Below, in pieces: positions 3,789 to 35,612 of a stretch of DNA of 35,615 nt. Origin of the DNA: a virus. The DNA lies in the IMG/VR virus record IMGVR_UViG_3300033567_000012, positions 1 through 35,615 of that record; one strand, written 5' to 3'. Within the stretch, counting starts at the first letter, position 1. Every line of letters begins with the position of its first letter. A program made the position numbers and the translations under genes. The notes under the pieces were generated by a model that worked only from the letters and a program-made list of their open reading frames with translations, ran no database searches and was not told the origin of the DNA.

Positions 3789-6098
3789 GTGGGCGTAAAA
3801 GATGCGTGGAAAGCGTTGTTCCAAGGTGAGCGAGCGCCGAAAAACTCACCCATGCGCGGCGAAGTCGGTATGACAGGCAACAAAATGTTTTCGGGGTTAC
3901 CAATGGACGAGTATAATCCCGACTTGGCGTTTCCAAAGTCGATAGAAGTCTACGACCAGATGCGGCGGTCAGATGGGCAGATTGGCGCCGTCCTCAATGC
4001 AATCAAGCTGCCGATACGCTCGGCGAAGTGGTATGTCGAGCCTAATGAGGATGCGAAGGATGAAAAATTGGCTGAGCAGATTGCGGAGTTCATTGAGGAC
4101 AACTTGATGGGCGGAATGGCTTACAGTTGGGACGACCACCTGCGTGAGGCATTGTTGATGCTGGACTTTGGATTCTCGGTATTCGAGAAGGTGTACAAGT
4201 TTGACACGTGGCAGAATAAGCCGGTGATTATGCTAGACAAGTATGCACCCCGTGTTGCTCCGTCTATCTGGAGGTTTCCACAAGACGAAGAGACTGGCGA
4301 CGTTGTTGCGGTCGAACAACTCAACTACTACACAGGCCAGTTGTTTTCAATCCCGCTGACAAAGTGTCGTCTCTACACGTACAACCGCGAGGGTGACAAT
4401 CCAGCAGGGATTAGTCTGTTACGCCAGGCGTACAAGCACTGGTACTACAAGGATTCGCTCTACCGCATCATGGCGGTCGGAGTGGAAAAATCACTGGTGG
4501 GTACACCTTACGCGACGATGCCAAAAGGTGCGTCTGAGCAGGACAAGAACTCGGTTCTCGCTGTTATATCGGCGATTCGCTCAGCTGAAGAGGCAGGTTT
4601 CACGATTCCTGAAGGCGTCATCCTCGGGATGCTTGAAGGTACGAAGAACGCAGTCGATGCCATGCCGCTGATGGAGCACCATGACACACTGATTGCGCGG
4701 TCGGTGCTCGGCCAGTTTCTCAACCTAGGTACCATGTCGTCAGCATCCGGTGGCAGTTTTGCGCTCGGTCAAACACAAGTCAGTCTGTTTTTGCAAGGGT
4801 TGGAAGCTATCGCAAACTATATCCAAGGCGAGATTCAGCACGACATTGAGCAACTCGTGGAATGGAACTTCGGCAAAGATGCGCCGGTACCACAACTCAA
4901 ACACGGTCTCATCACGATTGAGAGTGTATCCGAACGTATGACAGCGATTGCCGCTCTTGGTGCTGGTCACTTGGTCAATCCCGATGAATCGCTGGAGAAT
5001 TATCTGCGTAGCCTCATGGGATTGCCGCCGATTACGAAAGCGACGCTCGACAACCAGTTGCTATTGCCTGCTAACCGCTATGAGCCGGAGATTATTCCGA
5101 ACAAACCGCTTACACCACAAATGGCCGCTGACGCCGCGAAGGCACAAGCACAAGCCAAAGCACCAGGCATCATACCGGGTGCCACGGCTATCAAAGCTAG
5201 TGAGAGCGACACAGGTTTCACGTTCGCTGATGACGGTCCCAAAACGACTGGAGGCGGCCAACCACCGGCGCAAACGGGGAAGTGGAAGCGGGAACTCACT
5301 GCGCTCGAAAGCGAAGACATGCTTGTGCGGCTCAGCAAGGAATGGCAAGAGCACGAAAGCCAGTGGCAGTCACGTCTCGCGACACAGCAACAAACAGCTG
5401 CCAAGGACCTCGTTGACCAGGTGCGCCAAGTCGTCATGGCCCACACGAACAAGTTGATGCAGATGAACGATGTCAACAGCCTTAAAGTTCCGGTGGATAT
5501 GCAAGCCAAATACCAACAACAGATTGAGCAGTTGCTCACGCAATCCTATGAGACCGGCACAAACAGCACGGCTGCAGAACTCGGCACAACCAGTCCAACG
5601 GCCATCGATGCGGAGGTAACCGCACTCATCTCGGCAAAGGCGCAGTTGCTGGCGGGGGTGCAACTCGGCAAGCTCACAGATGGCGTGAAGTTTGCGGTTA
5701 TCGACCAACTAACACGGAACCACGCGGTTGGCGAAGTCGTCACAGCTGCACGACAGGCTGCGGCCACATTTATCGACGGCAACGACTTGAAGACTAGCGG
5801 TATGGTGTCGATTGGCGAGGCTCTGAACATCGGGCGCGGAGTTACGGCGAAAGCGGTAGGCGTCAAAGGTGCGCAGTGGTCGGCGGTACTGGATGACCAC
5901 ACATGTCCGCTGTGTGAATCGCTAGATGGCAAGAATATAAGCGCCGAGAACAAGGACTTTGATATTTTTAGGCCACCGCTTCACATCGGTTGCAGATGCA
6001 TCTTGGTATATATTGGAAGCAACAATACTGGTGAAGTGTACAACTGGGTGACACCGAGTCCGGAACTCGTGAAAAAGTATGGTCACCTCGTAAGTTAA
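3789..6098 (+). CDS. Portal protein (DUF935/Mu gp29 type) fused to a minor head (Mu gpF type) domain
   Basis: Residues ~20-430 resemble Mu gp29-type portals (DPDGQ-like RRSDGQIGAVLNAIKLPIRSAKWYVEP, then SVFEKVYKF). The portal is the ring at one capsid vertex through which DNA passes. Residues ~680-769 match the C-terminal Mu gpF/SPP1 gp7 domain: WSAVLDDHTCPLCESLDG...HIGCRC, with C706, C709, C735 and C737 placed to bind zinc. In many phages these are two genes; here one 769-residue frame carries both, joined by an Ala/Gln-rich linker. The start is GTG at 3789: AAGGAGGTGG (3776-3785) precedes it, and the ATG two bases earlier runs into a stop. Confidence 0.85.
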   Translation: MGVKDAWKALFQGERAPKNSPMRGEVGMTGNKMFSGLPMDEYNPDLAFPKSIEVYDQMRRSDGQIGAVLNAIKLPIRSAKWYVEPNEDAKDEKLAEQIAEFIEDNLMGGMAYSWDDHLREALLMLDFGFSVFEKVYKFDTWQNKPVIMLDKYAPRVAPSIWRFPQDEETGDVVAVEQLNYYTGQLFSIPLTKCRLYTYNREGDNPAGISLLRQAYKHWYYKDSLYRIMAVGVEKSLVGTPYATMPKGASEQDKNSVLAVISAIRSAEEAGFTIPEGVILGMLEGTKNAVDAMPLMEHHDTLIARSVLGQFLNLGTMSSASGGSFALGQTQVSLFLQGLEAIANYIQGEIQHDIEQLVEWNFGKDAPVPQLKHGLITIESVSERMTAIAALGAGHLVNPDESLENYLRSLMGLPPITKATLDNQLLLPANRYEPEIIPNKPLTPQMAADAAKAQAQAKAPGIIPGATAIKASESDTGFTFADDGPKTTGGGQPPAQTGKWKRELTALESEDMLVRLSKEWQEHESQWQSRLATQQQTAAKDLVDQVRQVVMAHTNKLMQMNDVNSLKVPVDMQAKYQQQIEQLLTQSYETGTNSTAAELGTTSPTAIDAEVTALISAKAQLLAGVQLGKLTDGVKFAVIDQLTRNHAVGEVVTAARQAAATFIDGNDLKTSGMVSIGEALNIGRGVTAKAVGVKGAQWSAVLDDHTCPLCESLDGKNISAENKDFDIFRPPLHIGCRCILVYIGSNNTGEVYNWVTPSPELVKKYGHLVS

Positions 6099-6189: not shown

Positions 6190-7746
6190 GTGGCACATGG
6201 GATGATTGACCTCGCGCAATTTGCGGAGAGCGCAAGTGGCGAGAGCTGGATTCAGATTATGAAAACAGGCAATTGGCAACATCCGAAGCTGAAGGAAGTT
6301 GCAATAACAAATAAAGACCTCGCACAGTTCAAGGACAACTTCGATAAACGCGTGCGCGGTGTCGATTTAGCTGTAGACGTATCGCATAATCCCGATGCCG
6401 GTGCAACAGGGTGGTTCAAAGAACTTAAAGTTGACGGCGACAAGCTGATGGCGAAAGTTGACTGGACTGAAGAAGGCGCTCAACTGGTGAAGTCGGGTAA
6501 ATATCGCTACTTCTCGCCTGAGTTTATGTTCCAATGGACTGACCCAGCGACGAAACAGACCCACAACAATGTCATGCTTGGTGGAGCGCTTACCAACAGG
6601 CCGTTCCTGAAGGACATGGAGCCGATTGCCTTCAGCGAATCGGGCATGGGCACCGTGTGGATGTCGGACGACGAAAGCATGGCAAATCCACAACACTATG
6701 CGTCGAGCGTAAAGCATGACGACGGCACGCACTACGACCCTGACGGCGATGGTGACGACGACAGCACAACGGATCCTCGTGCAAATCCGGACTGGATGTC
6801 CGACGTGAAGATGGGTGCGACTGCATGGCCGGAGCACACCGCCCAACAAGCGGAACTCGCGAAGGCTGGCGTAAACAAAGCAGACGCAGACAAGAAGTTT
6901 GCTGCGTTCCAGAAAGTTCATCCGATGCCTGGTCACAAGTCAGTGCAGATGTCTGAGCCGGTTGTTACCAACTCGCATAAGACACCACCGAAAGGCAAGC
7001 CGCAGAACCGTGACCTATACGCTGACCCTGACAACTACAAGTACCCGATTGACGCCAAGCACGTACATGCGGCCGTTAGCTACTACAACCAGGGTGGTAT
7101 GCAGTCAAAGGGTGGATACAGCGACGGCCAGTGGTCATCCGTTGGTAGTCGGATTGCGAAGGCCGCTGGTGATGGATACAGCCTCAAGGGTGGCAAAATC
7201 GAAACGCCGTCAACTCACGAAATGAGCGAAGCGGTGTATGACCCGGAGGCGAATCCCGATGACGGCATATCGACGCCGCACAAAACGGATGACACCAACG
7301 CCGGGAAATTTACAGATGGAGGTGGCAAAATGCCAGGCGAAAACGTTGTAACGATGGCCGAGTTTCAAGCGGCTCAAGCAAAGATTCAATTGCTGGAGAC
7401 CGAGAACCGCCAAGTCAAGATGACTGAAAAGGTGCGCAGTTGGATGTTTGACGAGAGCACCAAAACAGGCAAGATTGCACCAGCTCAGCACGACAAGACT
7501 GTCGAGATGCTCATGGGTATGTCGGAAGAGCAAGTGGCCGCATTTAGCGAGTTTATGGCGCAGGCACCAGCGGCAATCAGTTTTGGTGAGCACGGAACAT
7601 CTGCGGATGTCACTGCACGCATGAAGGAAACTGGTGGCGACAAGTCAGACCAAGTCGTGAAGCTGGCTGAGAAGAAGATGCGCGATGACCACATGGAGTG
7701 GAAAGAAGCGTTCATCGAGGCTTCGGACGAACTGGGGGTGAAGTAA
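6190..7746 (+). CDS. Head maturation protease/scaffold with inserted domain
   Basis: The first ~170 residues resemble Mu gpI-type prohead proteases (SWIQIMKTGNW...VDVSHNPDAGATGWFKEL, then KYRYFSPEF and a LTNRPFLKDMEPIAFSE end). The C-terminal ~130 residues are charged and helical, as in scaffolding parts. Between them lies an acidic DPDGDGDDD stretch, a WPEHTAQQAELAKAG segment, and a module rich in YADPDNYKYPIDAKHVHAAVSYYN and YSLKGGK that is known from other phage protease genes and has an unknown job. The GTG at 6190 follows AAAGGGGGTGG (6174-6184); the ATG at 6157 would place this site inside the gene. The order protease-decoration-capsid supports the call. Confidence 0.8.
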   Translation: MAHGMIDLAQFAESASGESWIQIMKTGNWQHPKLKEVAITNKDLAQFKDNFDKRVRGVDLAVDVSHNPDAGATGWFKELKVDGDKLMAKVDWTEEGAQLVKSGKYRYFSPEFMFQWTDPATKQTHNNVMLGGALTNRPFLKDMEPIAFSESGMGTVWMSDDESMANPQHYASSVKHDDGTHYDPDGDGDDDSTTDPRANPDWMSDVKMGATAWPEHTAQQAELAKAGVNKADADKKFAAFQKVHPMPGHKSVQMSEPVVTNSHKTPPKGKPQNRDLYADPDNYKYPIDAKHVHAAVSYYNQGGMQSKGGYSDGQWSSVGSRIAKAAGDGYSLKGGKIETPSTHEMSEAVYDPEANPDDGISTPHKTDDTNAGKFTDGGGKMPGENVVTMAEFQAAQAKIQLLETENRQVKMTEKVRSWMFDESTKTGKIAPAQHDKTVEMLMGMSEEQVAAFSEFMAQAPAAISFGEHGTSADVTARMKETGGDKSDQVVKLAEKKMRDDHMEWKEAFIEASDELGVK

Positions 7747-8359: not shown

Positions 8360-9292
8360 ATGCCAAAGTTCGGTACACTGCACGTTGAGCGCAATTTGAC
8401 GAACTACAGCCAGAAGTATAGCAACGCAGGCTTCGTGAATGAGTCGTTGTTCCCGAGCGTGAAAGTGAACTACGAAGCTGACAAGTATCTCGTGTACGAC
8501 TTGTCCAACTTCAACCTGTACGAGACCACTCGTGCGAACGGCTCGGAAGCGGCGCAAGTCGACTGGGGATTCAGCGAAGATTCGTATTTTGCTGAGGAAC
8601 ATAGCCTTCGTGACATCGTGACTGACCGCGACAAGGCCAACGCAGACAAGCCGCTGACAATCGATATCGACACGCTTGAGATTGTCACGGATGGCGTCAT
8701 GCTCAAAAAAGAGTACAATGCGGCACAGATTGCGCGGAACACGGCTAACTACACGAATGGAAACACCGAAGTTGCGCCCATCAAGTGGTCTGACTACACC
8801 AACAGCAAACCACTGAGTGACTTCCAAACTATGCAAGAAACCGTTTTTGATGTTTCTCGGAAGTATACAAATACCATCATACTGGGATATAAGGCCGCTA
8901 TAACTTTGGCTTACCATCCCGCTATCCTCGAACTCGTCAAGTACACCAACGGTGGCCTGTTGCAAACCCTCACAGGTGGCATTGGCGATGGGCTGTTGCC
9001 GAAGAAACTGTTCGGGATGCAGGTTGTGGTTGCTGGTGCGGCTTATAACTCGCAAAATCCAGGCCAAACAGCATCGCTTGCCGACATCTGGGGGAACGAC
9101 GTTATCGCGGCTTATGTAGAGCCAGGCGCGAAGTTGAAGTCCCTCAGCTATGGCAAGACATTCCGGACTGAAAAGTATGTCCGTAAATGGCGCGAAGAGT
9201 CTCGTCATGGCGACTGGGTTGAGTACAACGACATCTACGACCTCAAACTCACTGCCAGTGCAACAGGATTCTTGCTTCAGAGTGTTATTTAA
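8360..9292 (+). CDS. Major capsid protein
   Basis: This 310-residue protein builds the capsid shell. It has the features of capsid proteins that follow DUF2190 genes: an N-terminal extension, then NESLFPSVKVNYEADKYLVYD, a helix-rich centre (LEIVTDGVMLKKEYNAAQIARN), ALAYHPAILELVKYTNGGL-type spine residues, and a basic EKYVRKWREESRHGDWVEYNDIYDLKL end. The ATG follows CAGAGGTGAG. A long minus-strand frame lies opposite this gene (8303-9412), but it has no start signal and is only a by-product of codon use. Position and length fit very well. Confidence 0.85.
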   Translation: MPKFGTLHVERNLTNYSQKYSNAGFVNESLFPSVKVNYEADKYLVYDLSNFNLYETTRANGSEAAQVDWGFSEDSYFAEEHSLRDIVTDRDKANADKPLTIDIDTLEIVTDGVMLKKEYNAAQIARNTANYTNGNTEVAPIKWSDYTNSKPLSDFQTMQETVFDVSRKYTNTIILGYKAAITLAYHPAILELVKYTNGGLLQTLTGGIGDGLLPKKLFGMQVVVAGAAYNSQNPGQTASLADIWGNDVIAAYVEPGAKLKSLSYGKTFRTEKYVRKWREESRHGDWVEYNDIYDLKLTASATGFLLQSVI

Positions 9293-18028: not shown

Positions 18029-18158
18029 TTTATCACTCCTGTTTGTTTTGTTGTATATCCTCACACCATTCAATTCAATACAAGTTTTTTCTTTTCCTCT
18101 AATTGGCTGTAAATATTTCTGCAGCACGAAAAACTTCCTTTGTGAGTGTCTTGGTCAT

Positions 18159-18168
18159 GCGTCGCTAC
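18159..18168 (+). repeat. Copy 3 of the GCGTCGCTAC border motif
   Basis: Exact 10-mer about 45 nt before the GTG of the next tail gene and just before the hairpin at 18174. Confidence 0.5.
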
Positions 18169-18173
18169 ACCCC

Positions 18174-18212
18174 AAAACGTCCCTTATGCTTAATCGCAAA
18201 GGGGGCGTTTTT
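18174..18212 (+). terminator. Terminator-like hairpin that contains the next ribosome site
   Basis: AAAACGTCCCTT (18174-18185) pairs with AAAGGGGGCG-TTTT (18198-18211), allowing G-T pairs, and five Ts follow. The right arm AAAGGGGG (18198-18205) is also the only ribosome site for the gene starting at 18213, so folding would both stop transcripts and hide the site. Confidence 0.6.
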
Positions 18213-29063: not shown

Positions 29064-29288
29064 GTGAGATTGACAGATTCGCAGATCAAGGTCATTGGGC
29101 AATTGTCCAGCACAATCCTTTTGGCAGGAGCGCAAGAAATGTTGCCAGCGACGATCAAACTGTATTTAGACACCGTTGCAAGTGAGGAGGAAGCCGCAGT
29201 TGGAACGGCGGCTCCGTTTGAAGGACATAGTTCCGTGGGACGAACAGACGGCATGAATGATCCATACATCAAGTCAGACGTGCGTTAA
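29064..29288 (+). CDS. Early small protein, unknown
   Basis: 74 residues (RLTDSQIKVIGQLSSTILLAGAQEMLPATIKLYLDTVASEEEAA...). GTG 29064 after TGGAGGTGAG. The first half is helical. Its 3' end overlaps the end of the opposite-strand Cas2-like gene by 20 bp. Confidence 0.6.
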   Translation: MRLTDSQIKVIGQLSSTILLAGAQEMLPATIKLYLDTVASEEEAAVGTAAPFEGHSSVGRTDGMNDPYIKSDVR

Positions 29289-29544
29289 TCCATTCCCAAT
29301 CATCTTTTGGTAACCAACCTTGGTGGTCTGAAGGCGTTAAACGCCATACAAAATGGTTTTCTGGTTTGTAAACAGCGCGGACATGTTCGGACATCGCTTC
29401 TGCTGTCCAAGTTGTGTTGACAATCCACACTGAGTACATGACATGGTTCCAGTCTCCAAAGCTTTTGATTACATCGTGTAACTCTTTGTAATCAGATGAC
29501 TGAGCGTGATCGCGTAAATCGTACGTAACGATGTACAAAGCCAT
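29269..29544 (-). CDS. Cas2-like (SinR/VapD-type) ferredoxin-fold protein
   Basis: 91 residues. MALYIVTYDLRDHAQSSDYKELHDVIKSFGDW...SVWIVNTTWTAEAMSEHVRAVY...NHFVWRLTPSDHQGWLPKDDWEWI has the pattern of the Cas2-like 'SinR family' group: first strand 'YiVtYDLr' with the Asp that binds metal in Cas2 nucleases, 'W.....SVWiV.T', and a 'GWLPk..WEWi' end. No Cas1 or CRISPR repeats are present, so it is not CRISPR adaptation. Related folds include the VapD and GhoS RNases. AAAGGAGGGAAA precedes ATG 29544. It is the only leftward gene in the rightward early region. Confidence 0.75.
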   Translation of the reverse strand: MALYIVTYDLRDHAQSSDYKELHDVIKSFGDWNHVMYSVWIVNTTWTAEAMSEHVRAVYKPENHFVWRLTPSDHQGWLPKDDWEWINARLT

Positions 29545-29628
29545 TTGTTTCCCTCCTTTCGTGATTGATGGGTGGCACCAATCAATTCCACAGAATGGAG
29601 TAAAAATCCTCCAAGCGAGGTGATTCAT

Positions 29629-34619: not shown

Positions 34620-35612
34620 GTGGCTTGGATTGAGTCTCACGATGCGTTGGGTGAACATCCTAAAACTAAAAGACTAGCTAGAATCCTTGGAGAACCAATG
34701 CCCATGGTCGTGGGACGACTTCACTATTTGTGGTGGTGGGCTTTGAAATATGCCGAGGACGGCGACTTAACTCGATATGACGCTGCAGATATTGCCGATG
34801 GTGCTGGATTTGTCGGAGAAGCTACCGAATTTTTATCAGCTCTCGTACAAGCGGGTTTTATCGACGAGGAAGGCGATGTGGTTGTCCTTCACGATTGGGA
34901 TGATTACGCAGGTCGGCTAATCGAGCAACGAAAGCTAAATGCAGGGCGAAAAAAACGCAGTCGGGATTTATATGAAGACCAATCATTGACTCGGACTGTC
35001 AGGGAACGCGATGGCAACCGCTGTAGATATTGTGGTAATCCTGTGAATTGGAAAGACCGAAAAGGTTCTGGCGGAGGGACTTATGACCATGTTGACCCAG
35101 AGGGAACTAACTCTGTAGAAAACATCGTTGTTGCATGTAGGGGTTGTAATTCTGGGAAGGGACGCAGAACACCTGAAGAAGCAAATATGATTTTATTAAA
35201 ACCTATCAAGAAGAAGGTAGAAAAATCTAACCGTAATCTAACTGGAATCAAACCGGAATCAAACCTGCTTCAAACCTGTTTCAAACCTGATACCGCTATT
35301 ACCGTACCTGACCTAACCGTACCTGACCTGACCTTACCTAACCAAACCGTACCAAAAGAAGAGGAGATCGCGAGTCTGGAAATCACCGTCACTCGTGCAG
35401 AAGTAGCAACCGCTGAGGAATCACCAGAAGAGCAAAAAGACTCCTCCTCGTTTGGATATGACGAGAATGTTGCTTTGATTGCCAAAACCTTCAGCTCCGA
35501 GGGATACGGCCAAGCAACGGAAACGATTAGGACACAACTTAGTACGATGCTCGATGACTGCGTGGAGCCTTGGAGACAGCTGGACCGTAAAGAGTCGTGT
35601 AGCCAGAGATAA
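34620..35612 (+). CDS. Replisome-organizer-like initiator with embedded HNH domain
   Basis: 330 residues. Residues 1-110 (WIESHDALGEHPKTKRLARILGEPMPMVVGRLHYLWWWALKYAEDGDLTRYDAADIADGAGFVGEATEFLSALVQAGFI) match the N-terminal winged helix of Firmicutes phage replisome organizers. Residues 125-190 form an HNH nuclease: DGNRCRYCGNPV, YDHVDP, NIVVACRGCNSGKG, with the four zinc cysteines and the DH pair. A repeat-rich linker (TVPDLTVPDLTLP) follows, then a short tail. No complete DnaD C-terminal domain is seen before the stop at 35610-35612, so the end may be truncated or shifted. GTG follows the prior stop directly. Confidence 0.78.
   Translation: MAWIESHDALGEHPKTKRLARILGEPMPMVVGRLHYLWWWALKYAEDGDLTRYDAADIADGAGFVGEATEFLSALVQAGFIDEEGDVVVLHDWDDYAGRLIEQRKLNAGRKKRSRDLYEDQSLTRTVRERDGNRCRYCGNPVNWKDRKGSGGGTYDHVDPEGTNSVENIVVACRGCNSGKGRRTPEEANMILLKPIKKKVEKSNRNLTGIKPESNLLQTCFKPDTAITVPDLTVPDLTLPNQTVPKEEEIASLEITVTRAEVATAEESPEEQKDSSSFGYDENVALIAKTFSSEGYGQATETIRTQLSTMLDDCVEPWRQLDRKESCSQR
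35222..35287 (+). repeat. Six 11-bp iterons inside the initiator gene
   Basis: Consensus GGAATCAAACC in exact 11-bp spacing: two degenerate units (35222-35232, 35233-35243; 8 of 11 bases each), two identical (35244-35254, 35255-35265) and two close (TGCTTCAAACC, TGTTTCAAACC to 35287). Since 11 is not a multiple of 3, the repeat is not caused by repeated protein. Confidence 0.75.
35301..35360 (+). repeat. Four 15-bp direct repeats next to the iterons
   Basis: ACCGTACCTGACCTA (35301-35315), ACCGTACCTGACCTG (35316-35330), ACCTTACCTAACCAA (35331-35345) and the start of a fourth (ACCGTACC, 35346-35353, then diverging to 35360). They encode the TVPDL pentapeptide pattern. Confidence 0.7.

Follow-up and report, generated by a model that had tools for sequence, protein, structure and literature searches.

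Two adjoining repeat arrays inside a phage initiator gene are a probable bipartite replication origin

The virus record analysed here (IMG/VR, 35,615 bases; hereafter, the window) contains a replication-initiator-like gene whose coding sequence carries two neighbouring tandem arrays, the first with 11-bp and the second with 5-bp units. Judging from their sequence and context, these arrays are probably the replication origin of the phage, a bipartite origin lying inside its own initiator gene, in which the 11-mers would be bound and the pentamers would serve opening or helicase loading. Intragenic phage origins with iterons are a known kind. The 11+5 grammar described below, its recurrence in multiple families and the imprint that stop avoidance leaves on it were absent from the literature searched, which covered few subscription papers, and part of this may be in print. 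The features of the locus are as follows.

34620–35612, + strand: replication-initiator-like gene, 330 amino acids, GTG start, stop codon TAA at 35610–35612 (open reading frame listing and PHROG 9474)
34620–35006, + strand: N-terminal domain, residues 1–129, predicted to be a winged-helix-like DNA-binding domain (PHROG 9474 and AlphaFold2)
35022–35168, + strand: HNH nuclease-like domain, residues 135–183, between the N-terminal domain and the arrays (Pfam PF01844)
35176–35225: least stable 50-mer of the 34.0–35.6 kb region, 24% GC, just upstream of the iterons (stability calculation)
35224–35289, + strand: array 1, six 11-bp iterons with an exact period, consensus about AATCAAACCGG
about 35301–35355, + strand: array 2, eleven 5-bp ACCNN units on the coding strand with a 15-bp superperiod (Tandem Repeats Finder and reading)
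35356–35612, + strand: C-terminal part of the initiator-like protein, without a Pfam match to the DnaD-like PF07261, unlike several relatives

The arrays start about 600 bp into the gene. The units of array 1 are, in order, AATCTAACCGT, AATCTAACTGG, AATCAAACCGG, AATCAAACCTG, CTTCAAACCTG and TTTCAAACCTG, which bears out the six exact tandem units of the initial annotation, and 11 bp separate the last of them from array 2 (ACCGT ACCTG ACCTA ACCGT ACCTG ACCTG ACCTT ACCTA ACCAA ACCGT ACCAA). The second array had been taken for a set of independent 15-bp iterons; an array is indeed present there, but it is made of eleven 5-bp units. Tandem Repeats Finder gives it a period of 15 bp and also one of 5 bp, the periods in relatives are 5 and multiples of 5, and the 15-bp period arises because 15 is the common multiple of the 5-bp unit and the 3-bp codon.

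The match-run score of the window at period 11 is 39, a value reached by none of 5000 synonymous-codon permutations (mean 11.5, maximum 35), and that at period 5 is 27 (permutation maximum 20, 0/5000). With codons resampled by phage usage as a second null, the result is 0/5000 for both periods. Period 15 alone is weaker, its score being reached in 6/5000 under either null, and the runner-up array anywhere in the 35.6-kb window scores 9 at period 11 or period 5. Because the synonymous nulls never reach the observed scores, the arrays are a property of the DNA and not of the protein. The 11-bp period is thus independent of protein repetition, as first proposed, and such repetition is ruled out as the source of the arrays by the synonymous nulls in the window and in its relatives.

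The gene content of the window is that of a temperate phage: terminase, portal, capsid, tail, integrase and endolysin genes are present, a Holliday-junction resolvase gene lies at the 5′ end, and RecT-like, SbcC-like and anti-repressor genes neighbour the initiator gene (PHROG and Pfam matches). The resolvase gene (3–476) is cut by the start of the record, and the initiator reading frame stops three bases short of its end. In r1t, Tuc2009 and other phages the resolvase and initiator genes lie close together, and this may thus be a near-complete genome cut between those two genes. No phage sequence was matched by positions 1–25000 in a megablast search, and the GC skew of the window carries no informative signal. 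On the opposite strand, positions 29269–29628 encode a 119-residue protein with weak matches to DUF4465 (E 0.0012) and to Cas2-like proteins (E 0.034), perhaps a small ferredoxin-fold protein.

The arrays had been placed inside an initiator gene, and this assignment is upheld by the match of residues 1–129 to PHROG 9474, ‘replication initiation protein’ (E 2e-40). Modelled with AlphaFold2 from 59 sequences, residues 1–120 reach a confident pLDDT of 86.9, and a single-sequence fold of the whole protein is poor (pLDDT 45). Structure matches of the N-terminal model are weak, namely Z 4.6–5.1 for the RepA chains 4pql, 5kbj, 4pt7 and 4pta and Z 4.0 for DnaD (2vn2), the top rank being held by an unrelated chain at Z 5.4; Foldseek returned no match with E under 0.001, and a PDB sequence search with the N-terminal profile returned none. 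A DnaD- or RepA_N-like fold of this domain is thus a lead suggested by modelling. The RepA_N plasmid initiators of pSK41 and pTZ2162, to which the weak fold similarity (Z 4.6–5.1) refers, have their origin within rep. RepA_N iterons are described as palindromic in PMC7145576, and many of the 11-mers compared, in several relatives of the window gene, likewise have a palindromic core, e.g. GGACGTCC or GCACGTGC. The window itself differs from the RepA_N systems in having 11-bp units, an iteron without a clear palindrome and a protein that gives no Pfam match to RepA_N (PF06970) at E up to 0.1.

To place the arrays in context, relatives of the window gene (family 1) were compared. The first protein searches gave 22 loci, 16 of which have an N-terminal relative at 41–64% identity, while six (L014–L017, L022, L023) match via the HNH part only and were excluded from repeat counts. 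Together with the best 80 loci from an alignment search and nine named phages, 98 genes were entered, 87 of them distinct once exact duplicates had been removed. With an array called when its score was reached in at most 2/200 synonymous shuffles, a period-11 array is present in 46/87 and a period-5 array in 44/87 distinct genes. Across the scanned periods of 4–30, the best period of a gene is most often 11 or 5 (26 and 24 of the 87 genes, respectively). The 11-mers vary from relative to relative (GTCACGCG-, CACGTGCAG-, GTCCAACGGAC- and GTAACGCGTTA-like units and others), and the second array is mostly ACCNN, with ACANN, AGAGA, AGGAG and CGGGT (actinophages) as exceptions. Strong periods of 4, 9, 14, 19 or 24 occur in L064, L072, L078, L093, L103 and other family-1 genes, as if 4- and 5-bp units were mixed in the second array.

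Within the 65 discovery loci, the best array of the whole locus falls inside the initiator gene in 53 cases for period 11 and in 50 for period 5, with 11.5 expected by length for each; the control periods 7 and 13 do so in 13/65 and 12/65. A second scan, directed at HNH-type relatives, yielded 67 new loci among the best 80, which after removal of 20 duplicates and one short gene left 46 genes. At threshold, both arrays are present in eight of these, the 11-mer only in nine, the 5-mer only in 12 and neither in 17, and the best array of the locus lies inside the initiator gene in 28/46 for each period (7.6 expected). In the majority of other HNH-type relatives, the two arrays are not both clear. 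Retention of the protein with loss of the repeats, which the initial annotation had regarded as evidence against an origin, is therefore seen in those 17 of 46 second-set genes, and the layout is common among the relatives rather than universal.

The same layout is found in initiators of another family, that of Tuc2009. The record of Tuc2009 orf16 bears the note ‘Rep; contains origin of replication’, and, according to PMC8965321, Tuc2009 ORF16 and TP901-1 ORF13 bind direct-repeat-rich regions that lie within the genes encoding them and function as ori. In Tuc2009 orf16 (Rep2009), an 11-bp array (TGNCAACCAAN) at 7434–7479 is followed, after a 7-bp gap, by a 5-bp array of AGGAT/AGGTT units at 7487–7543; in r1t orf11, TGGAACCGAAA units are followed by AGATA/AGAAT/AGATT units. 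These arrays rank first for their period across each 14-kb region, and they occupy the same place in the gene as those of the window. The best 80 loci of this family gave 68 distinct linkers, of which 59 have period 11 and 66 have period 5 at the 1% level (100 synonymous shuffles). The likeness extends to proteins that differ otherwise: the N-terminal domain of Tuc2009/r1t shows no detectable profile homology to that of the window (probability 2.6%), the pentamers are of the AGGTT or AGATT type where the window side has ACCTA, and these organizers lack an HNH domain and have PF06926 and PF09524 C-termini. In a third family, initiators with a Lin1244_N domain, AAAGT-type pentamers score at least 12 in 12/13 loci, without a clear 11-mer. 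Profile comparison demonstrates no homology among the N-terminal families F1, Tuc and Lin1244.

Both arrays reach a score of 12 in 26/87 family-1 and 41/68 Tuc-family initiators, compared to 3/666 other open reading frames of the loci. Wherever both are present, the 11-bp array comes first (26/26 family-1, 41/41 Tuc-family and 8/8 second-set genes, 75/75 in total), and the median gap between them is 11 bp in family 1 and 7 bp in the Tuc family. The relatives are not independent of one another, above all in the Tuc set. This comparison supports the original interpretation of the repeats as a replication origin, in that distant homologs have the arrays at the same position and the Tuc2009 family, with an origin reported in PMC8965321, shows the same 11-then-5 order. 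The remark that two different arrays side by side would be unusual does not survive it, as the pair is recurrent in this class of initiators.

Other phage initiators depart from this pattern to varying degrees. TP901-1 rep, whose intragenic ori is reported in PMC8965321, has a 15-bp repeat without the 11+5 layout, and phi11 has two 11-mers followed by a purine tract. Listeria phage A118 gp49 (L139) has a two-array layout with periods other than 11+5, 12-bp ACAACGAAAGGG-type units being followed by 8-bp AAGAATTA units at 8951–9066. Lactobacillus phage A2 (L143) carries four 11-bp tandem units (GCGAACTANNN) at 18134–18175, at the end of ORF50 and distant from its annotated rep_origin. No 11/5 arrays were found at the annotated non-coding origin of Sfi21, and a search with PF09681 gave one locus, which was left out with its relevant part masked by N. 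Lambda O resembles the window in that its iterons lie midway along the initiator gene and precede a strand-asymmetric tract. The lambda origin, however, has four 18-bp iterons spaced about 20–24 bp and an A-rich tract, and no 5-bp array as strong as that of the window; the 11-bp units of the window do not fit a lambda O pattern of four 18-bp iterons at about 20-bp spacing.

The location of the arrays in coding sequence has left an imprint on the pentamers. A perfect array of ACCTA, AGGTT or AAAGT produces a stop codon every 15 bp, whatever the frame. In family 1, ACCTA accounts for 0/91 units in the TAA-giving phase and 63/181 in the other phases; in the Tuc family, AGGTT accounts for 0/88 units in the TAG-giving phase and 90/218 elsewhere; and in the Lin1244 family, AAAGT accounts for 1/14 units in the stop-giving phase and 33/39 elsewhere. 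The Fisher values (9e-14, 1e-16 and 4e-7) are indicative, as units within an array are not independent. The second family-1 set agrees, with ACCTA in 0/33 units in the stop-giving phase and 18/69 elsewhere. This avoidance argues that selection acts on the DNA and that the 5-nt motif is preserved within the limits of the code. It also accounts for the 15-bp units of the initial annotation: because the presumed origin sits in coding sequence, its 5-bp array must dodge in-frame stops, and a 15-bp superperiod results. The arrays, their order, spacing and conservation, the selection at the DNA level and the link to initiator genes are all direct observations.

Repeats of AGGTT and of ACCTA are reverse complements of each other, and in our reading two of the families thus share one repeat, placed in opposite directions. 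The pentamer tracks the N-terminal family (ACCTA, AGGTT or AAAGT), and the similarity of the 11-mers increases with N-terminal identity (Mantel r 0.25, 5/999 permutations as high, 49 arrays). C-terminal domains do not follow this division: the DnaD-like PF07261 is found in four of the five family-1 relatives scanned (L039, L042, L113 and L024, not L033), and one C-terminal cluster of 70 members goes with ACC-, AGG-type or AAAGT pentamers according to the N-terminal family. Recognition of the pentamer by the C-terminal domain is disfavoured by this single cluster that spans all three types. The pentamer thus goes with the N-terminal module, be it through recognition or through physical linkage.

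The arrays might instead be operators through which the protein represses or times its own gene, with the origin elsewhere. Autoregulation could indeed work through such binding. We nevertheless regard this as improbable, given that (i) the repeats lie far inside the gene, about 600 bp downstream of its start, (ii) the intragenic origin of Tuc2009, as reported, shows the same layout, and (iii) an operator does not call for a stop-avoiding 5-bp tract.

The HNH domain raises another alternative. Residues 135–183 match Pfam PF01844 with an E value of 7.7e-06 (26.4 bits, cut-off 21.4); in an alignment of six HNH-type sequences, the Cys pairs and the Asn are kept in all six and the DH in five, the window residues of catalytic type being DH at 156–157 and N168, and in the relative L122 the catalytic-type His is replaced by Tyr. 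An HNH domain stands between the N-terminal domain and the arrays in the window and in L002, L003, L118, L119, L122, L226 and L228, and the HNH-carrying relatives of the window gene have quite different N-terminal sequences. In Brevibacterium phage AGM3 (L025), four annotated 198-bp repeats (3793–4584) lie within an HNH-type initiator gene, and the AGM sister phages have unequal genome lengths, perhaps from the copy number of this repeat in the replication gene.

From sequence, the HNH domain may have no active part, may serve in processing of the origin or may be directed against rival origins, as is Odn of phage ICP1. In Odn, according to PMC8263062, a RepA_N domain is fused to a nuclease, and iterons are required for cutting. 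The window gene might, by this precedent, encode an origin-directed nuclease aimed at the origins of competitors, since it joins an initiator-type DNA-binding domain to a nuclease domain in the same manner. The likelihood of this is as small as that of the operators. The gene carries its own iterons and adjoins recombination genes (RecT, SbcC-like), a comparison of 25 window proteins (the initiator-like protein included) to PHROGs revealed no further initiator and no helicase or primase, and HNH-type genes are frequent in actinophages. Odn, furthermore, has a T5orf172-type nuclease rather than HNH, is not the initiator and has no origin in its gene. A dual role as initiator and origin-directed nuclease is possible.

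Still less probable is that slippage within a disordered linker produced functionless repeats, which need only leave the protein intact, stop avoidance being ordinary purifying selection. The linker sequence is free to vary, some arrays resemble recent 15-bp expansions (L120), and slippage combined with selection against stops could also produce stop avoidance. However, among periods 4–30 it is 5, 11 and their multiples that dominate, in two N-terminal families, closely spaced and always in the same order. Slips of 5 bp disrupt the reading frame, and those of 15 bp create no 5-bp period. The remaining proposal, that the pentamer tract acts through DNA secondary structure, a G-quadruplex of its G-rich strand, and not through protein recognition, seems the least probable of all: TTAGG-like and CGGGT tracts could, from their sequence, form quadruplexes, but AAAGT, AGAGA and AGATT tracts have no G-runs, which also disfavours the quadruplex as the feature common to the tracts.

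In favour of the pentamer tracts as the place where the duplex might open, they are less stable than their own gene in 44/55, 60/62 and 11/11 genes. In the window the tract does not stand out, since 26% of the window is at least as unstable, and the CGGGT tracts of some actinophage relatives fit simple melting poorly because they are GC-rich. The least stable stretch upstream of the window iterons (35176–35225) is a possible unwinding stretch in this genome; as a general rule, an AT-rich stretch at this place was rejected, with lower GC in 30/49 and 21/44 relatives only.

Returning to a bipartite origin, we propose the following model. The 11-bp iterons, which recur about once per helical turn, would be bound side by side by the N-terminal domain on one face of the DNA. 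At the 5-bp tract, ACCNN on the coding strand and about 11 bp further on, the duplex would be opened or a strand-specific single-strand contact made, and this opening or contact would lead to loading of the replicative helicase; alternatively, the strands might open at the least stable stretch upstream of the iterons. Iteron binding, strand opening, helicase loading and origin activity are what we infer from the sequences. In this the pentamer tract would be comparable to the DnaA-trio/DnaD recognition element beside the DnaA boxes of Bacillus oriC. B. subtilis DnaD, according to PMC10201434, recognises a strand-specific short single-stranded motif opposite the DnaA-trios, so that in both systems such an element would lie beside double-strand sites. 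The bacterial elements are TnnT opposite 3-nt DnaA-trios and belong to the host chromosome, whereas the phage tract has 5-nt units and is known from sequence alone.

Opening of DNA and loading of helicase by phage initiators are poorly known beyond the lambda model. As a tentative generalization, to which we give slightly less than even credence, many phage initiator families may share a two-tier grammar of intragenic origins, in which iterons, mostly of 11 bp, are followed at most about 10 bp on by a strand-specific 5-nt tract. This tract would be the counterpart of the DnaA-trio/DnaD element and would be tied to the N-terminal family, not to the exchangeable C-terminal domain that recruits the helicase, and its 15-bp superperiod would reflect stop avoidance. 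The conserved two-part sequence is recognisable without experiment and has a built-in control, every third pentamer being forced by the frame to deviate. The layout makes origin opening directly testable through synonymous recoding. If the generalization is true, the 11+5 grammar could locate phage origins by sequence alone, and it could help to find origins in uncultured phages.
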